Shown here: in pieces, positions 5,715 through 30,856 of the stretch
Layout: each line of letters starts with the position of its first letter
Numbering within the stretch: position 1 is the first letter of the stretch
Origin: Cellulophaga sp.
GTDB taxonomy: Bacteria; Bacteroidota; Bacteroidia; Flavobacteriales; Flavobacteriaceae
DNA: 40,634 bases
Assembly (NCBI GenBank): GCA_030731855.1
Contig: JANQTG010000154.1
Span: 1,649-42,282 of the forward strand
Direction of reading: 5' to 3'
Position numbers and translations under genes: made by a program
The notes under the pieces: model-generated
Database searches by the model: none
The model's input: the letters and a program-made list of their open reading frames with translations, nothing else
Told to the model about the DNA's origin: nothing

Positions 5715-5748
5715 CGTTATATACTTAACCCAATCTAAGTATATAATG
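5715..5748 (+). promoter_or_regulatory. Hairpin enclosing the start codon of the OmpA-family gene
   Basis: Positions 5715-5727 pair with 5736-5748 in a 13-bp stem (12 Watson-Crick pairs and one G-U) with an 8-nt loop, 5728-5735. The core arms are TATATACTTA and TAAGTATATA, and the right arm contains the ATG at 5746-5748. In RNA this would sequester the start codon; in DNA it is a strong dyad that could bind a dimeric regulator. Confidence 0.5.
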
Positions 5749-6834
5749 AAGACATTTTACACTACAATCCAATTATTTGTTGGATTAATTTGTTTTTTAG
5801 GACAAAGTCAAAATTTAGTAAAAAACCCTAGTTTCGAGGCCAAAAATAAATGTCCGGATGACTACGGAACGCTTAATATAGATGTAAAAGATTGGAAAAT
5901 TCCAAGCTTAGGAACCACCGATTATTTTAGTACCTGTAGCACAAAATTACCCGTAGAAGATAATTTTATTGGATCTCAACGCCCATTTGAAGGCGATGGG
6001 TATGCTGGAATGTATATGTACGCACCCCAAGATTACAGAGAATATATAACCGCAGCATTAGAAACTACTTTAGAAAAAGGAAAATCTTATAAAATTTCTT
6101 TCATGATAAATTTGGCGGACAAAGTTGAATTTGCCGTCAATACTTTTGATATTTTGTTATCTAAAACTGCTTTTGAAGTAAATACCTCTAAATATATAGA
6201 TTTAGGGTACGTTCCGACAAGTTCAGACATGAACTACAAAGAAATTATGACCAGAGGTTATTACGACAATACAGAAGAATGGACCGAAGTTTCTACTACA
6301 ATTATAGCAAAAGGTAACGAACGTTTTCTTACTATAGGCAATTTTAAAAGTAATGAAGCAACCAACATTCAAGTCGTTAAGAAAACATCGAGAAAATCGG
6401 CTTATTATTTTATTGATATGGTAAGTGTTGAAGCGATGCCTTTCTTTAATTTAAATGAATTGTATGTTATAGATGATATTCTGTTTGATAATGATGAAAC
6501 CAGTATCGAGGTTTCTAATAACGAGCAGTTACAAGGTTTAATAGATTATTTAAAGGCAAAGCCTAATTTGAAAGTAAATCTTTACGGACATACAGATGCT
6601 ATGGGATCTGCAAACTATAACGACGATTTATCTGAAAAAAGAGCAGAAACTATTGCCAATTTTCTAATAAAACAAGGCGTGCCTAAAAGTAAAATAGCAT
6701 GGAAAGGTTTTGGATTAAAAAAGCCAATAGTCGATAATAATCAAGAACAACTTCGTTTTAAAAACAGGCGTGTAGAATTTTTAATTTCTCAGCCCGATAG
6801 TAATTACGCCAATACGGTTTATGAGGATCAGTAG
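5746..6834 (+). CDS. OmpA-family peptidoglycan-associated outer-membrane protein
   Basis: A 362-residue exported protein. A signal peptide at residues 1-20 is followed by a domain starting NLVKNPSFEAKNKCP, a pattern common in Bacteroidota carbohydrate-binding-like (jelly-roll) modules, spanning about residues 22-230. Residues about 240-352 form an OmpA C-terminal domain: YGHTDAMGSANYNDDLSEKRA, split here only for description, then KIAWKGFG and RFKNRRVEFLI. The conserved Asp of HTDAMG and Arg of NRRVEF are the diaminopimelate-binding residues of this family, so it should anchor to peptidoglycan. It has its own 115-bp upstream gap with a striking hairpin over the start codon, suggesting separate regulation from the upstream TPR-barrel pair. 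The ligand of the N-terminal domain is unknown. Confidence 0.85.
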   Translation: MKTFYTTIQLFVGLICFLGQSQNLVKNPSFEAKNKCPDDYGTLNIDVKDWKIPSLGTTDYFSTCSTKLPVEDNFIGSQRPFEGDGYAGMYMYAPQDYREYITAALETTLEKGKSYKISFMINLADKVEFAVNTFDILLSKTAFEVNTSKYIDLGYVPTSSDMNYKEIMTRGYYDNTEEWTEVSTTIIAKGNERFLTIGNFKSNEATNIQVVKKTSRKSAYYFIDMVSVEAMPFFNLNELYVIDDILFDNDETSIEVSNNEQLQGLIDYLKAKPNLKVNLYGHTDAMGSANYNDDLSEKRAETIANFLIKQGVPKSKIAWKGFGLKKPIVDNNQEQLRFKNRRVEFLISQPDSNYANTVYEDQ

Positions 6835-6906
6835 GTGATTTACAAATAATAATGTTTCTTTTGTAACTTTTATATCTTTTAGATACTTATTGTATAAAGC
6901 AAATGA

Positions 6907-8319
6907 ATGCTAAAGAAAGGGTTTTTAAGAAATAATATTGGCAAAAACATACCTATCTATAAATTCCTAATCGGAATTATTTTAGGATTACTCGCTGCGT
7001 TTTTCTTGTACGAAATCCTTTATCTTTTTAGGGAAACTCTTCGAGTTTTTTCGACGTCTGAAGAACATGATATTTGGATATTAACCGATGAAGAAGTTGA
7101 CTTTTATAACCTAATTTTTGCTTTTATTGCAACGATAATGGGACAATCTATTTGTCTTATCTATTGGTTTGATACTCCTAAAACTAATTTTAATGCTAGA
7201 CCAACTAGACTAGGCAGTGTTGTCCATGAGCAGCGATTATTGAACTGGTATTTTCTAAATTGGTTTGCTAAACTAGCTTTTGTTTTTGGTATTATGTTTG
7301 GTTTCCCAGGATTTGCCGGTCATTACGAATTTAGTTTTTTTCCTGATTTTAACTACTTCTTTATCTTAATTATTATTGTTTTATTTCTTCAAACTTGGAA
7401 CGGAATATTATTGGTTTTTAAAGCTAAAGCTTTTAAATGGATGCTGATTTCAGCCCTAATAGTTTCAAGTGTTTCTTATGGTTTATCAAAAATAAACATA
7501 GTAGCGTATAAAGAATTAAATAATCGGGTTATTGAAAAAAGAATATCTTCAAAATATCAATTAAACTTACCAGAAAGTAGCGTTTTTAAAAAGCAGGAAC
7601 AAAAAAATTGGTTACCAAAAGTATCAGTAGTATTTTCCTAAGACTCGACTATTAAAGAGCCAATTTATTTGTTAGGAAATTCCATGCTAGGGCCAAGAGC
7701 AATAGCTTTAAAAATGGATTCCATAAGTAAGGCCAGAAGTAATCCTAAATTTTGGAATGAACAGGCCAATTTTAATTTTCAGATTGATAAAAATATGCCG
7801 ATGCTCCATGTTGAACGGATGAAGGAGGAATTGGGGCATGTCGATTTCAGATGGCTTGATATATTGGTTTTACCAAGGGATAGGAAATTTGAAGACTTTT
7901 ATTATCAATCCATTCAATACTCTTATCTCAGTATTTTTAATCAATACAATATATTATATGAAACCAATAAAGAAAAAGAGTTTTCGAATATTATAAAAAT
8001 TGAGTGTGCAGAAAATCAATACCTAATTAATAATAACATTGTCTCCGTAGAGGCTTTTAAAATTAAATTGCAAAACCTAATGCAAAAAGATAAAAATTAC
8101 GTTATTGAATTTTATTTTGGCGAACAAGTAACTTTTAGTCAATATGTTGGGACTTATTCCACGTTATGGGAATTAGTAAACGAACTTAGAAATATAATGT
8201 CTATTGATATTTATGGACGAGATTATGCTGATTTAGAGGGAGAAGAACGAGAGATAATTTTAGATAGATATCCTTTTCGGTTAATGGAAATGTTTACAGA
8301 TTCTAAAGCCGAAGATTAA
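6907..8319 (+). pseudogene. Membrane protein with ExbD-like C-terminal part, split by one in-frame stop
   Basis: Two open stretches, 6907-7641 (244 codons) and the frame continuing to 8319, lie in the same reading frame and are separated only by a TAA at 7639-7641. Reading through it gives about 470 codons without other stops. The first half has about five hydrophobic segments (residues near 15-37, 72-88, 114-133, 147-168 and 178-193) and then a soluble tail; the second half is soluble. Around 7995-8190 it shows the order seen in ExbD periplasmic domains: a short ENQYLINNN strand pair, VEAFKIKLQNLM helix, then strand and helix LWELVNELRN; this likeness is only suggestive. The fragment after the stop has no good start (TTG 7669 or ATG 7684), supporting a single interrupted gene. 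A recent nonsense mutation, sequencing error or readthrough are all possible. No named family recognised. Confidence 0.7.
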
Positions 8320-8329
8320 CTAAAAAAAT

Positions 8330-8337
8330 TACCTTTG
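8330..8337 (+). promoter_or_regulatory. Promoter -7 element for the MFS gene
   Basis: TACCTTTG matches the Bacteroidota -7 consensus TAnnTTTG exactly and sits 16 bp before the ATG at 8354. No clear TTG is present at the expected -33 distance, so only the -7 half is supported. The transcript leader would be about 10 nt. Confidence 0.4.
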
Positions 8338-8353
8338 CCAACTTATTCAACAC

Positions 8354-9652
8354 ATGGCAAATCCCAATAAATTTTCTTTTATAAACCCTAAAAAAAGCCC
8401 CATTTTTTATGGGTATATAGTCGCTATTTTTGGAACTATTGGCGTTTATTTAAGCATGCCCGGGCAAACTATAGGGGTGTCCGTTTTTACCGATCCTGTA
8501 AAAGATGCCTTAGGCCTTTCAAGAAATCAGTTTAGTAATGCCTACATGATTGGTACTATTATGAGTTCTTTAGTGATTGGCAAAGCTGGTGTATGGTTCG
8601 ATAAGTATGGCGCAAGATATGTGGCATTTTTTGCAGCACTAACATTGGCTTTTTCTTTGTTGTTATGTTCTTGGTCTGTAAGCATGAGCGTCTTTATTCA
8701 AGAGATTCTCCAAATACAGTCATGGTTAATTCCTTTTTGTTTAATGACACTCCTGTTTTTTATGCTTCGATTTTCTGGACAGGGTGTTTTAACCATGGCA
8801 TCGCGGAATGTGATTATGATTTGGTTCGATAAAAACCGAGGAAAAGTAAATGCCGTCAGCAGTGTGGCCATTTCCTTTGGTTTTTCATCTTCGCCACTCT
8901 GGGTTAATTATTTAATAGAAAGTTATACTTGGCAAGGGGCTTGGCAAATTTTAGCTTTGGCGCTGGTCATCTTAAGCGTTTTAATTTTACAATTTTACAA
9001 AAACAAACCAGAAGATCATGGTTTGCTCCCAGATGGTGAGGTAATAACCGAAGAAAAAACAATAAAACGTTCAGCTAAACAATACACTTTGGAAGAAGCT
9101 AAGAAAACACGTGCCTTTTGGATGTATGGTTTAATATTAGCCTTTAATAGCTTTTTTATCACAGGGTTAACCTTCCATATTGTATCTATTTTTAATAGTG
9201 AAGGCTTTCCTAAAGAAGATGCTATTGCTATTTTTTTACCAGCATCAGTTGTTGCCGTAACAGTATCTATTGTTTTTAATTTTTTAAGCGATTATTTAAG
9301 GTTAAAACTCTATTTATATTTAATGATTTTAGGCGGAATTTTTGCATCCGTAGGTTTTCTTTTTCTTTCAACTTGGTTTGGTGTGCCCTTGCTAATTCTA
9401 GGTTTCGGAATTATGAGTGGTTTTTATGCAGTACTTAATGCCATCGTTTGGCCTCGTTTTTATGGAAGAACACATTTAGGGGCTATTACAGGAAAAATTA
9501 TGAGTCTTTTAATTTTAGCCAGTGCATTGGCACCCAGTACTTTTAGCTTGTGTTTTTCTACTTTTGAAAATTATAGATTAATGGGCTATATAGGCTTGGC
9601 ATTTTTATTGTTTTTAGGAATAGCCTCTATAAAAGCAAATAATCCGCAGTAG
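8354..9652 (+). CDS. Major facilitator superfamily transporter
   Basis: A 432-residue inner-membrane transporter with about 12 hydrophobic segments in two bundles and a charged central loop (residues about 218-250). Between segments 2 and 3 it carries the MFS motif A in the form GVWFDKYGAR. The opening FYGYIVAIFGTIGVYLSMPG and the RNVIMIWFDKNRGK stretch recall the oxalate/formate-antiporter (monocarboxylate) branch of MFS, but the substrate cannot be read from sequence. It follows the interrupted gene by 34 bp and has its own -7 promoter element. It is followed after 135 bp by a PepSY-type membrane protein. Confidence 0.85.
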   Translation: MANPNKFSFINPKKSPIFYGYIVAIFGTIGVYLSMPGQTIGVSVFTDPVKDALGLSRNQFSNAYMIGTIMSSLVIGKAGVWFDKYGARYVAFFAALTLAFSLLLCSWSVSMSVFIQEILQIQSWLIPFCLMTLLFFMLRFSGQGVLTMASRNVIMIWFDKNRGKVNAVSSVAISFGFSSSPLWVNYLIESYTWQGAWQILALALVILSVLILQFYKNKPEDHGLLPDGEVITEEKTIKRSAKQYTLEEAKKTRAFWMYGLILAFNSFFITGLTFHIVSIFNSEGFPKEDAIAIFLPASVVAVTVSIVFNFLSDYLRLKLYLYLMILGGIFASVGFLFLSTWFGVPLLILGFGIMSGFYAVLNAIVWPRFYGRTHLGAITGKIMSLLILASALAPSTFSLCFSTFENYRLMGYIGLAFLLFLGIASIKANNPQ

Positions 9653-9787
9653 TATTCTTGATTATTCTTATTAGTCCTTAACAATTAATTTTAGCATTTC
9701 TTTCAGAGAAAATAGGTTTTATATTTTTATCTTTTACAGCCAATATTTAGAATACTATTTTTTATTTACTTCACAGAATACCTTATC

Positions 9788-10354
9788 ATGAATGCAGCCA
9801 ATAGTCGAAAAAACCAAGCAAAAGTTTTACGAATTTTTAGAAAAATACACCGATACACTGGCGCAACTTTATTTCTATTTTTCTTTGTTATTTCGGTATC
9901 AGGTCTTTTACTAGGCTGGAAAAAAAATAGTAATGGATGGTTATTAGCCGATACCCAAAAAGGTACTACTACAGAGTTTTCACAATGGTTGACTTTAGAA
10001 GTGTTGACTCAAAAGGCCCAGGCTGTAATGAAAGATTCTGTTAGTGATGAAACCTTTATTGTTTTAGATCGAATTGATATTCGAAAAGATAAAGGTGTTA
10101 TTAAATTTAATTTTGATGGGTATTATGGGCTACAGCTAGATGGTGGAACAGGAGAATTATTAGAATTTGGAAAACGGAATACCGATTTGGTTGAAAATAT
10201 TCATGATGGGTCTATTTTAGATGCTTATTTTAATATATCAGGCGGATATATAAAGTTGTTTTATACCACCATTATGAGTGTTGCTTTATTAATTTTTACG
10301 ATTACAGGGTTTTGGCTTTGGTACGGGCCAAAACGTATGCGAAATACAACTTAA
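9788..10354 (+). CDS. PepSY-associated transmembrane protein
   Basis: A 188-residue membrane protein with the layout of the PepSY-associated TM family: an N-terminal helix carrying IHRYTGATLFLFFFVISVSG (residues about 21-40), a periplasmic PepSY-like segment (about 65-135), the HDGSILD motif, and a C-terminal membrane helix ending in ITGFWLWYGPKR. The conserved histidines near the membrane (IHRYTG and NIHDG) are shared with relatives found beside ferric-siderophore uptake and reductase genes, and may bind haem or metal. It is the short, single-PepSY form. It sits between the MFS gene and the Cys-cluster gene, all on the plus strand, but gaps of 135 and 79 bp leave operon structure open. Confidence 0.75.
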   Translation: MNAANSRKNQAKVLRIFRKIHRYTGATLFLFFFVISVSGLLLGWKKNSNGWLLADTQKGTTTEFSQWLTLEVLTQKAQAVMKDSVSDETFIVLDRIDIRKDKGVIKFNFDGYYGLQLDGGTGELLEFGKRNTDLVENIHDGSILDAYFNISGGYIKLFYTTIMSVALLIFTITGFWLWYGPKRMRNTT

Positions 10355-10433
10355 AAATAAATATTAGCTCAAAAATATTGATGTAAAACGGATTGTTTTT
10401 TAGTTTATTTTCGCGGAATATTTAAAACTATAA

Positions 10434-11042
10434 ATGTCTATACTAAAGAAGGTTAGATCGGTTAATGCATTATATGCTGGTCTAGATAAAGAGATTGCTA
10501 TTTTTCAATCTAAAACCTCGTTACATTGCAAGGCTGGCTGTGGCAAATGTTGTACACATGCAGAGGTTGATGCTTCTCCTTTAGAATTTATTCCTTGGGC
10601 ATTTAATCTTTTTTTAAATGGTACGGCAGCCACAACTTTAGACGAACTAAATAGTAAAGAAAGTGCCATTTGTCATATTTACGAACCGCTTTCTATTGTA
10701 GATAGTGGTAGCGGAAAATGCAGTGATTATGTATACCGTGGATTAATTTGTCGTTTGTTTGGTTATGGAGCAAATCGCGATAAATTTGGTGAAATGCGTT
10801 TAGCTACCTGTAAAATTATAAAAGAAACTCAAGCAGAAAATTTCGAAGCTGCTCAGAAAGCTATGAAAGAAGGTTTGTATGTGCCCATTTTTACGGATTA
10901 TTACATGAAACTTTCGCAAATAGATTTTAAATTAGGAAACCAAATTGTACCCGTAAACAAAGCGCTAAAAATTGCTTTAGAAGAAGTATTACAGTTTTAC
11001 GCCTACCGCCCGTTCCCAAGAGGCTTTAAGGATTGTGCGTGA
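10434..11042 (+). CDS. YkgJ-type cysteine cluster protein
   Basis: A 202-residue soluble protein with the N-terminal cluster C-KAG-C-GK-CC (residues about 32-40), then further cysteines at CHIYEP, CSDYVYRGLICR and ATCK. This set is typical of the YkgJ/Fe-S or zinc-binding CxxxCxxCC family, whose biochemical role is poorly defined. No signal peptide or membrane helix is seen. It is the last gene of a plus-strand group and converges on the ABC-F gene; the 161-bp gap between them holds heptamer repeats rather than a clear hairpin terminator. Confidence 0.8.
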   Translation: MSILKKVRSVNALYAGLDKEIAIFQSKTSLHCKAGCGKCCTHAEVDASPLEFIPWAFNLFLNGTAATTLDELNSKESAICHIYEPLSIVDSGSGKCSDYVYRGLICRLFGYGANRDKFGEMRLATCKIIKETQAENFEAAQKAMKEGLYVPIFTDYYMKLSQIDFKLGNQIVPVNKALKIALEEVLQFYAYRPFPRGFKDCA

Positions 11043-13157: not shown

Positions 13158-14777
13158 ATGAAAAGAATACTCCTGCTTTTTGCAGTTATTTTAGCAAGTT
13201 GCGAACAAGTTAAAGAACAAGTAGATTTAATCGTAACAAATGCGAATGTTTATACTGTAGACGATGCATTTTCAAAAGTGCAATCTTTTGCGGTTAAAGA
13301 GGGTAAGTTTATAGCTATTGGTACGAGTGAAGAAATATCAGAAAAGTATACTTCTGAACAACTTGTTGATGCTGCGGGTAAAACAATTGTACCTGGGTTG
13401 ATTGATGCACATTGTCATTTTTACCGATTAGGGATTGATCAACAAGAACTCGATTTGGTGGGTACTGTAAGCTACGAAGACATTTTAGAAAAAGTTAAAA
13501 GTTTCCAAGAAACAAATAATAGAGATTTTATCATCGGACGAGGTTGGGATCAAAACGATTGGGAAGTAAAAGAATTCCCTACCAAAGACGCGTTAGATGC
13601 TTTGTACCCAAATACACCAGTAGTTTTACAGCGTATTGATGGGCATGCGTATATCGTAAACCAGAAAGCGCTTGATTTAGCTGGAATCACGGCAGATACT
13701 AAGGCTTTAGGAGGCGAAATTGTAAAAAACAATGGAAAAATAACAGGTATTCTAGTCGATGGCCCAATGGATTTAGTGGATGCTATTTTACCTAAGCCTT
13801 CTAAAAAAGTAATGATTCAGGCCTTAAAAGATGCCCAGAAAATTGCTATAAACAATGGTTTAACAACCGTGAACGATGCAGGTTTATCTCGAGAAGTTAT
13901 TGAACTAATAGACAGTTTGCAGCAAACAGGAGACTTGTCGATGCGCGTGTATGCTATGGTTTCTAATTATCCAGAGAACTTAGATTACTTTTTGAATAAG
14001 GGCATTATTAAAACCGATTATTTAAATGTACGTTCTGTAAAAGTGTATGGGGATGGTGCTTTAGGTTCTCGTGGTGCTGTTTTAAAAGAATCGTATACAG
14101 ATCAACACAATCATTTTGGCGCTATGGTAACCCCTGTAGATGAAATAGAAAGTTTAGCAAAAAGAATTGCGGCAACAGAGTATCAAATGAATACCCATGC
14201 TATAGGCGATTCGGCCAATGTAGTAGTTTTAAAAGCGTATAAAAATGCTTTGCAGGGAAAAAATGACCGACGTTGGAAAGTGGAGCATGCACAAATAATT
14301 GCCCCTTTAGATTTTAATTATTTTGAAGATGGCATTATACCATCTGTACAACCAACTCATGCTACTAGCGATATGTATTGGGCCGAAGATAGGTTAGGAG
14401 CAGAGCGCATAAAAGGGGCTTACGCCTTTAAAACACTTTTAGATAAAGCAGGGATTGTAGCATTAGGTACCGATTTTCCTGTGGAACAGGTAAGTCCGTT
14501 TTTAACTTTTTATGCAGCAGTAGCTCGAAAAGATACCAAAGGATATCCCGAAGGAGGTTTTCAAGCTAATGATAAACTTACTAGAGAAGAAGCTTTAAAG
14601 GGAATGACGATTTGGGCAGCCTATAGTAATTTTGAGGAACAAGAAAAAGGCAGTATTGAAGTGGGTAAATTTGCCGATTTCGTAATACTTGAAAAAGATA
14701 TTATGACCATCCCAGAAGAAGAAATACCAACGACAAAAGCTACGCAAGTATATATTGCGGGTAAAAATTTAAAATAA
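13158..14777 (+). CDS. Amidohydrolase family lipoprotein (YtcJ-like)
   Basis: A 539-residue metal-dependent hydrolase of the amidohydrolase superfamily. The chosen ATG at 13158 gives a lipoprotein signal MKRILLLFAVILASC with the lipobox cysteine at residue 15; a longer frame from 13071 would hide it. Just after comes the beta-sandwich segment DLIVTNANVYTVDD, then the metal-binding DAHCH motif (residues 83-87), the later MNTHAIGDSA and WKVEHAQI histidines and LGTDFPVE aspartate, all expected in this superfamily. The C-terminal GSIEVGKFADFVILEKD is the usual closing sandwich. Relatives are annotated YtcJ-like or AepA-like; the substrate (an amide or ester) is unknown. The protein should be anchored in a membrane facing the periplasm. 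It shares a bidirectional terminator with the converging DUF2911 gene. Confidence 0.85.
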   Translation: MKRILLLFAVILASCEQVKEQVDLIVTNANVYTVDDAFSKVQSFAVKEGKFIAIGTSEEISEKYTSEQLVDAAGKTIVPGLIDAHCHFYRLGIDQQELDLVGTVSYEDILEKVKSFQETNNRDFIIGRGWDQNDWEVKEFPTKDALDALYPNTPVVLQRIDGHAYIVNQKALDLAGITADTKALGGEIVKNNGKITGILVDGPMDLVDAILPKPSKKVMIQALKDAQKIAINNGLTTVNDAGLSREVIELIDSLQQTGDLSMRVYAMVSNYPENLDYFLNKGIIKTDYLNVRSVKVYGDGALGSRGAVLKESYTDQHNHFGAMVTPVDEIESLAKRIAATEYQMNTHAIGDSANVVVLKAYKNALQGKNDRRWKVEHAQIIAPLDFNYFEDGIIPSVQPTHATSDMYWAEDRLGAERIKGAYAFKTLLDKAGIVALGTDFPVEQVSPFLTFYAAVARKDTKGYPEGGFQANDKLTREEALKGMTIWAAYSNFEEQEKGSIEVGKFADFVILEKDIMTIPEEEIPTTKATQVYIAGKNLK

Positions 14778-30361: not shown

Positions 30362-30856
30362 TTATTGTCTTGTAAAAACAATACTATCTTTAACTTCTAA
30401 AAGAAATTTTTCAGCTAAACCCGCATTAACCTCTAAAACATATTTTATGGGTACTTGAGACGAAAGTCCATTTTCGTTAAAAGGTTCAGCATTTTCTTGA
30501 AAACTAGCGATCTTTAAATGTTCATCAAGAAAAATAATATCAAGGGGTATTTCTGTATTTTTCATATAAAACGAATGCATTTTAACATCCTCAAAAATAA
30601 ATAACATACCTCTGTTGGCTAACATTTTTTTTCTATACATTAAGCCAGTTTCGGTTTCGTAAGGAGTTTCAGCTATTTCTATGTCAAACCTAGTCACTAC
30701 AGAATCGGTTTTGGATTTATAAATAGTGAGCTCTCCTTCTTTTTTAAATTCGATGGGTGTGGTTTTAATTTCGGCTTTTGTTTCTTCTTTACAACTCGTA
30801 AAATTTAAACTTATAGCTAAGAATGCCAAAAGAGAGAGTATGTTTAATTTTTTCAT
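30362..30856 (-). CDS. DUF192 family lipoprotein
   Basis: A 164-residue protein with a lipoprotein signal (residues 1-21, lipobox FTSC with Cys-22) and a single DUF192 domain: ETGLMYRKKMLANRGMLFIF, MHSFYMKNTEIPLDIIFLD, and VKYVLE-like KYVLEVNAG near the end. The domain's function is not established. The gene lies only 4 bp after lgt, the enzyme that acylates lipoproteins, so it is likely both co-expressed with and modified by Lgt. Confidence 0.85.
   Translation of the reverse strand: MKKLNILSLLAFLAISLNFTSCKEETKAEIKTTPIEFKKEGELTIYKSKTDSVVTRFDIEIAETPYETETGLMYRKKMLANRGMLFIFEDVKMHSFYMKNTEIPLDIIFLDEHLKIASFQENAEPFNENGLSSQVPIKYVLEVNAGLAEKFLLEVKDSIVFTRQ

Follow-up and report, generated by a model that had tools for sequence, protein, structure and literature searches.

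A single reading frame within the window (i.e., the whole 40,634-nucleotide stretch of Cellulophaga sp. DNA analyzed here) most likely represents one inner-membrane protein gene that a recent nonsense mutation has split with a single stop, apparently a case of ordinary, ongoing gene loss and not of a new decoding trick. As the initial annotation had described, positions 6907-8319 of the forward strand form one frame (470 codons with the internal stop counted), in which TAA at 7639-7641 is the only stop before the final TAA at 8317-8319. From ATG 6907, 244 codons lead up to the internal stop, and 225 codons follow it, the first possible start among them (TTG 7669) lying nine sense codons past the stop and the first ATG at 7684. 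At the base composition of the window, 225 open codons have a chance of ~2e-8, so the second stretch is coding. The parts of the frame are these:

6907..7638, forward strand: N-terminal half, with ~5 membrane helices as read from the sequence and from a model of a homologue, ending in a linker past the last helix
7639..7641, forward strand: internal stop TAA, whose alignment column has a sense codon in 17 of the 21 homologues and is gapped in the remaining 4
7642..8319, forward strand: C-terminal half (225 codons and the stop), corresponding to two ExbD/TolR-like domains in intact homologues
7669..8319, forward strand: longest open reading frame able to restart past the stop, from TTG 7669, with its first ATG at 7684

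Such an arrangement is by itself no demonstration of a broken gene, since pairs of open stretches in one frame, each 120 codons or longer and parted by one stop, number 16 in the 270,640 bases considered from this genome (the window and 20 sampled stretches), three of them within the window; homologues spanning the stop are needed. The parting stop is TAA in 14 of these 16 pairs. The window's two other pairs, on the minus strand with stops at 30362 and 29831, appear by eye to be ordinary adjacent genes, with an ATG 4-5 codons past the stop. No clear split gene was found among the 15 other pairs, 12 of which were judged by eye and three by Pfam searches of the downstream part; two of these three downstream parts carry a nearly whole domain near the N-terminus, and the third matches TonB_C weakly, at its far end.

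Homologues spanning the stop were found repeatedly. The C-terminal half matches 7 of 100 relatives' genomes, its own included; two of the other matches, to open frames of 478 codons in G013 and 491 in G043, span most of it, while the remaining four are weak and partial, in open reading frames of 186-207 aa. In G013, a genome of the same genus, an intact 466-aa homologue runs straight through the stop position, with 47% identity to the window overall (56% over the N-terminal half and 37-38% over the C-terminal half). Using the G013 protein as query against 397 family genomes drawn from a larger group, we obtained matches at 26 places in 25 genomes, of which 21 had E < 1e-7. One of these is the window, and the 20 further copies are without exception open frames of 399-491 aa. 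Among the five remaining rows, three lie in open reading frames that adjoin ExbB-like ones and are matched only near their C-terminal end (in one of them, L033, Pfam confirmed an ExbD with a MotA_ExbB neighbor), another is a 323-aa open reading frame, and the last, in G023, is a 56-residue fragment with three stops, near a contig end and adjoining an mpl-like gene, which is seemingly a relic. In the alignment of 21 homologues, the column of the stop holds a sense codon in 17 and a gap in the four most divergent; no homologue in it starts near TTG 7669, and the internal stop was found in none of the relatives' copies examined. Separately, one otherwise open homologue (approximately L019:1386-2630, minus strand) stops ~70 residues short of where most others end, and is possibly truncated too.

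A similar picture came from a second, named collection of contigs, which overlaps the first (its L091 seems to be the same as G043). A search of it with the C-terminal half found no relative, and a search with the alignment of the N-terminal half yielded 28 loci, of which 22 are open, two are cut by contig ends, and four are interrupted. Four of the open loci (L092, L094, L097, and L099) have no tblastn match (E up to 0.01) to the window's C-terminal half but align over their whole length with the remaining family members. With intact homologues spanning the stop, this is one broken gene and not two: the possibility that homologues would always be two separate proteins, which would have made these two ordinary genes of an operon, is thereby ruled out, and what was found fits two of the options of the initial annotation, a very recent nonsense mutation and a base-call error.

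The intact protein is predicted, from sequence and from a structure model, to have about five membrane helices followed by two ExbD/TolR-like domains. In the model of an intact Allomuricauda homologue (L078; mean pLDDT 72, pTM 0.63), long helices occupy roughly the first 200 residues and are followed by two domains, the main elements of each being strand-strand-strand-helix-strand-helix-strand; the internal stop sits between the last helix and the first ExbD-like domain. Foldseek matches to ExbD/TolR chains have probability 1.00 and lie at ~2 Angstrom over 64-75 columns, with E no better than 0.022, and a best E of 0.0016 was obtained for the family profile against ExbD chains of the PDB, which it matches at the second domain. 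Pfam ExbD (PF02472) is found in 16 of 21 family members and NCBIfam ExbD_2 in 4 of 21. The earlier suggestion of a membrane-anchored protein with an ExbD-like soluble half is thus borne out, also by the true ExbD of L033 (Pfam ExbD 2e-18, adjoining a MotA_ExbB gene), which matches positions 8101-8289 of the window with 27% identity over 63 residues (E 2.9e-6). Searched alone against Pfam, the C-terminal half of the window did not match ExbD at E up to 1. Its Pfam match to VP5 (E 0.015) is below the cut-off, weak, and to an unrelated family, and was taken as chance.

The family therefore shares the ExbD-like periplasmic fold of ExbD/TolR (PF02472), the C-terminal half of the window included, but differs from these proteins in three respects. 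First, it has two such domains after ~5 membrane helices, against one domain after one helix. Second, the window protein has no acidic residue in what we read as its last helix (residues 177-196, with neither D nor E), while true ExbD carries an aspartate in its membrane helix, according to PMC12204202. Third, the ExbB/TolQ gene expected alongside a true ExbD/TolR stator subunit was not found within the window, where the ExbB-like protein of L033 gave no tblastn match at E up to 1. Judged by the missing aspartate of its last helix, the protein resembles ExbD outside the membrane without being a motor subunit.

How long ago the frame was interrupted can be gauged from changes on the window branch against those on the branch of the intact G013 copy. 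After the stop, 12-15 changes fall on the window branch and 15-20 on the G013 branch (five outgroups), while before the stop the counts are 21-24 and 8-28, the window branch being the more changed with four of the five outgroups. Of the columns on which the outgroups are unanimous, the window differs from them at 4 of 73 behind the stop (G013 at 5) and at 17 of 145 before it (G013 at 8). Nothing in these comparisons points to relaxation past the stop, and the N-terminal half is, if anything, the more changed. Old decay, which had already been thought unlikely from the uninterrupted frame, is ruled out by this lack of excess change, and a C-terminal half no more changed than in G013 means that the lesion is young or the base an error; a very young lesion, a base error, and use by readthrough fit it alike. 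Taken over its whole length, the C-terminal half scores highest in the coding frame (0.13 vs −0.14 and −0.02), though another frame does better in two short windows (7717 and 7807). That no second stop has appeared bounds the divergence since the lesion at < ~0.08 substitutions per site, a figure that assumes a C-terminal half free of constraint since the stop and counts new stops only.

A young allele fits what Belinky et al. 2021 (PMC7918605) report of in-frame stops, namely that these are widespread among bacterial genes and for the most part short-lived. The present case resembles such young nonsense alleles: it has a single in-frame stop that is seen in one genome only, relatives are intact, and the sequence behind the stop has not decayed; no difference from them was found in a comparison made from one genome of the species. 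As in a young pseudogene, the full-length gene is intact in relatives and the lesion is, among the genomes examined, private to one lineage.

Four homologues of the second collection are also interrupted. That of Psychroserpens burtonensis DSM 12212 (L096:3956-5363), a deposited strain genome, has two in-frame stops, TAG 4637 and TAA 4715: an N-terminal half of 227 codons ends at the TAG, the TAA follows 26 codons on, and the frame is then open to its end. These stops, at codons 228 and 254, lie in the same linker as the window stop (codon 245); in alignment columns they are at 241 and 268, with the window stop at 250, so that the first is within 10 columns of it. In Psychroserpens, 5 of 23 genomes are matched, i.e., L096, three open copies (465-498 codons), and a weak match. 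The L096 C-terminal half has identities of 0.57 and 0.55 to two relatives, vs 0.53 and 0.47 for the intact L125, and is by this measure not accelerated either. The three other interrupted copies come from metagenome bins and may reflect errors: L085 (coverage 6.49 by its title) has one stop and a frameshift near its end, L098 has its frame broken in the N-terminal half near a contig end, and L101, in a Flavobacterium bin (coverage 2.15 by its title), has a frameshift at a run of eight A (L101:3543-3550), in the same linker, which is probably an assembly error. By plain count, the lesions of three copies (the window, L096, and L101) all fall within one linker.

The main rival to a recent nonsense mutation is a base-call or consensus error, the gene being uninterrupted in the living organism; we consider this a secondary possibility, with perhaps a fifth of the weight. 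It would account for a single-codon lesion with no sign of decay behind it in a draft assembly (246 contigs, 90% completeness), and two of the other interrupted copies, L101 and L085, come from low-coverage bins. Against it, the rest of the 40.6-kb window has long open reading frames and by eye no further suspicious break, the 15 other pairs in 270.6 kb include no clear split gene (three by Pfam, the rest by eye), and two stops interrupt the same gene in P. burtonensis DSM 12212; with a deposited strain genome affected, such alleles probably occur in nature.

Rather improbable, in our view, is an adaptive version of events, in which stops arise repeatedly in the linker because detaching the periplasmic domains is useful, either with the truncated membrane part kept or with leaky full-length synthesis as an on/off switch. 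We give still less credence to programmed or leaky UAA readthrough that yields some full-length protein, which the initial annotation had listed among its options. A C-terminal half without relaxation would be expected of it, and Belinky et al. 2021 (PMC7918605) argue that in-frame stops of bacteria are often read through; but the leaky codon named in their discussion is TGA and not TAA, the stop is not conserved and occurs in none of the relatives examined, and the RNA downstream of and around it has no unusual fold (z 0.16 and −1.01). Moreover, with 14 of 16 same-frame pairs parted by TAA, general UAA suppression would extend many proteins. Equally far-fetched is a functional split into two cooperating proteins, the second made from TTG 7669 or ATG 7684: a start codon does lie 9 codons past the stop, but no homologue in the 21-homologue alignment begins there, in homologues a membrane helix comes before these domains and the second part would be without it, and no exact AGGAGG stands before TTG 7669 (the single exact AGGAGG before a TTG in the window, at 13709, is no more than chance). 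A genome-wide reading of TAA as sense is unlikely, since most of the sampled pairs are parted by TAA and resemble ordinary genes.

We thus return to a recent nonsense mutation in one gene as the best explanation. Provided that the base is real and termination at the internal TAA efficient, the product would be a membrane part without its periplasmic domains, and the C-terminal part would either not be made or be started without a membrane anchor, so that the allele would most likely be loss-of-function, i.e., a null. The gene itself is most likely dispensable. It is present in only 2 of 18 genomes of the genus (that of the window and G013), and such frequent absence in relatives suggests that its loss is tolerated. 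In the window, the order is OmpA, the gene, MFS, PepSY, and YkgJ-like; in G013 it is OmpA, PepSY, the gene, and YkgJ-like, i.e., the same neighborhood with the gene in a different slot. Pfam identified PepSY_TM in one neighbor and CxxCxxCC (below the cut-off) in another, the latter of which we take to be YkgJ-like. In seven genomes of the genus, OmpA and YkgJ-like genes are present without the gene, and tblastn (E up to 1) finds no relic of it between them either; of the other regions fetched, G017 is without the YkgJ-like gene and G007 without OmpA.

For annotation, the locus should be treated as one interrupted gene and not as two proteins, with little consequence beyond that. The more useful by-product is the family itself, a patchily distributed set of membrane proteins with tandem ExbD/TolR-like domains (from the L078 model and the 21-member alignment), for which Pfam and NCBIfam searches of 21 members gave no model past the ExbD part, apart from weak single matches. 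A Mur-ligase gene, presumably mpl, lies near the family gene in at least 16 of 53 loci (L014, L016, L017, L019-L023, L025-L027, L032, L096, and L125-L127; in L014 the Mur ligase domains were identified by Pfam), and an Amidase_3 gene in at least 4 of 53, both counts being lower bounds since the loci are unequal in length; neither gene is in the window. By analogy with ExbD/TolR and from the Mur-ligase neighbor, our guess would be a role in sensing or tethering at the cell wall or envelope. As for the MFS gene beside the interrupted gene (window region 5746-11042), it has no match in the 10 other regions of the genus that were fetched, and an MFS gene 73% identical to it lies directly before the family gene in an uncultured Flavobacteriaceae bin (L076).
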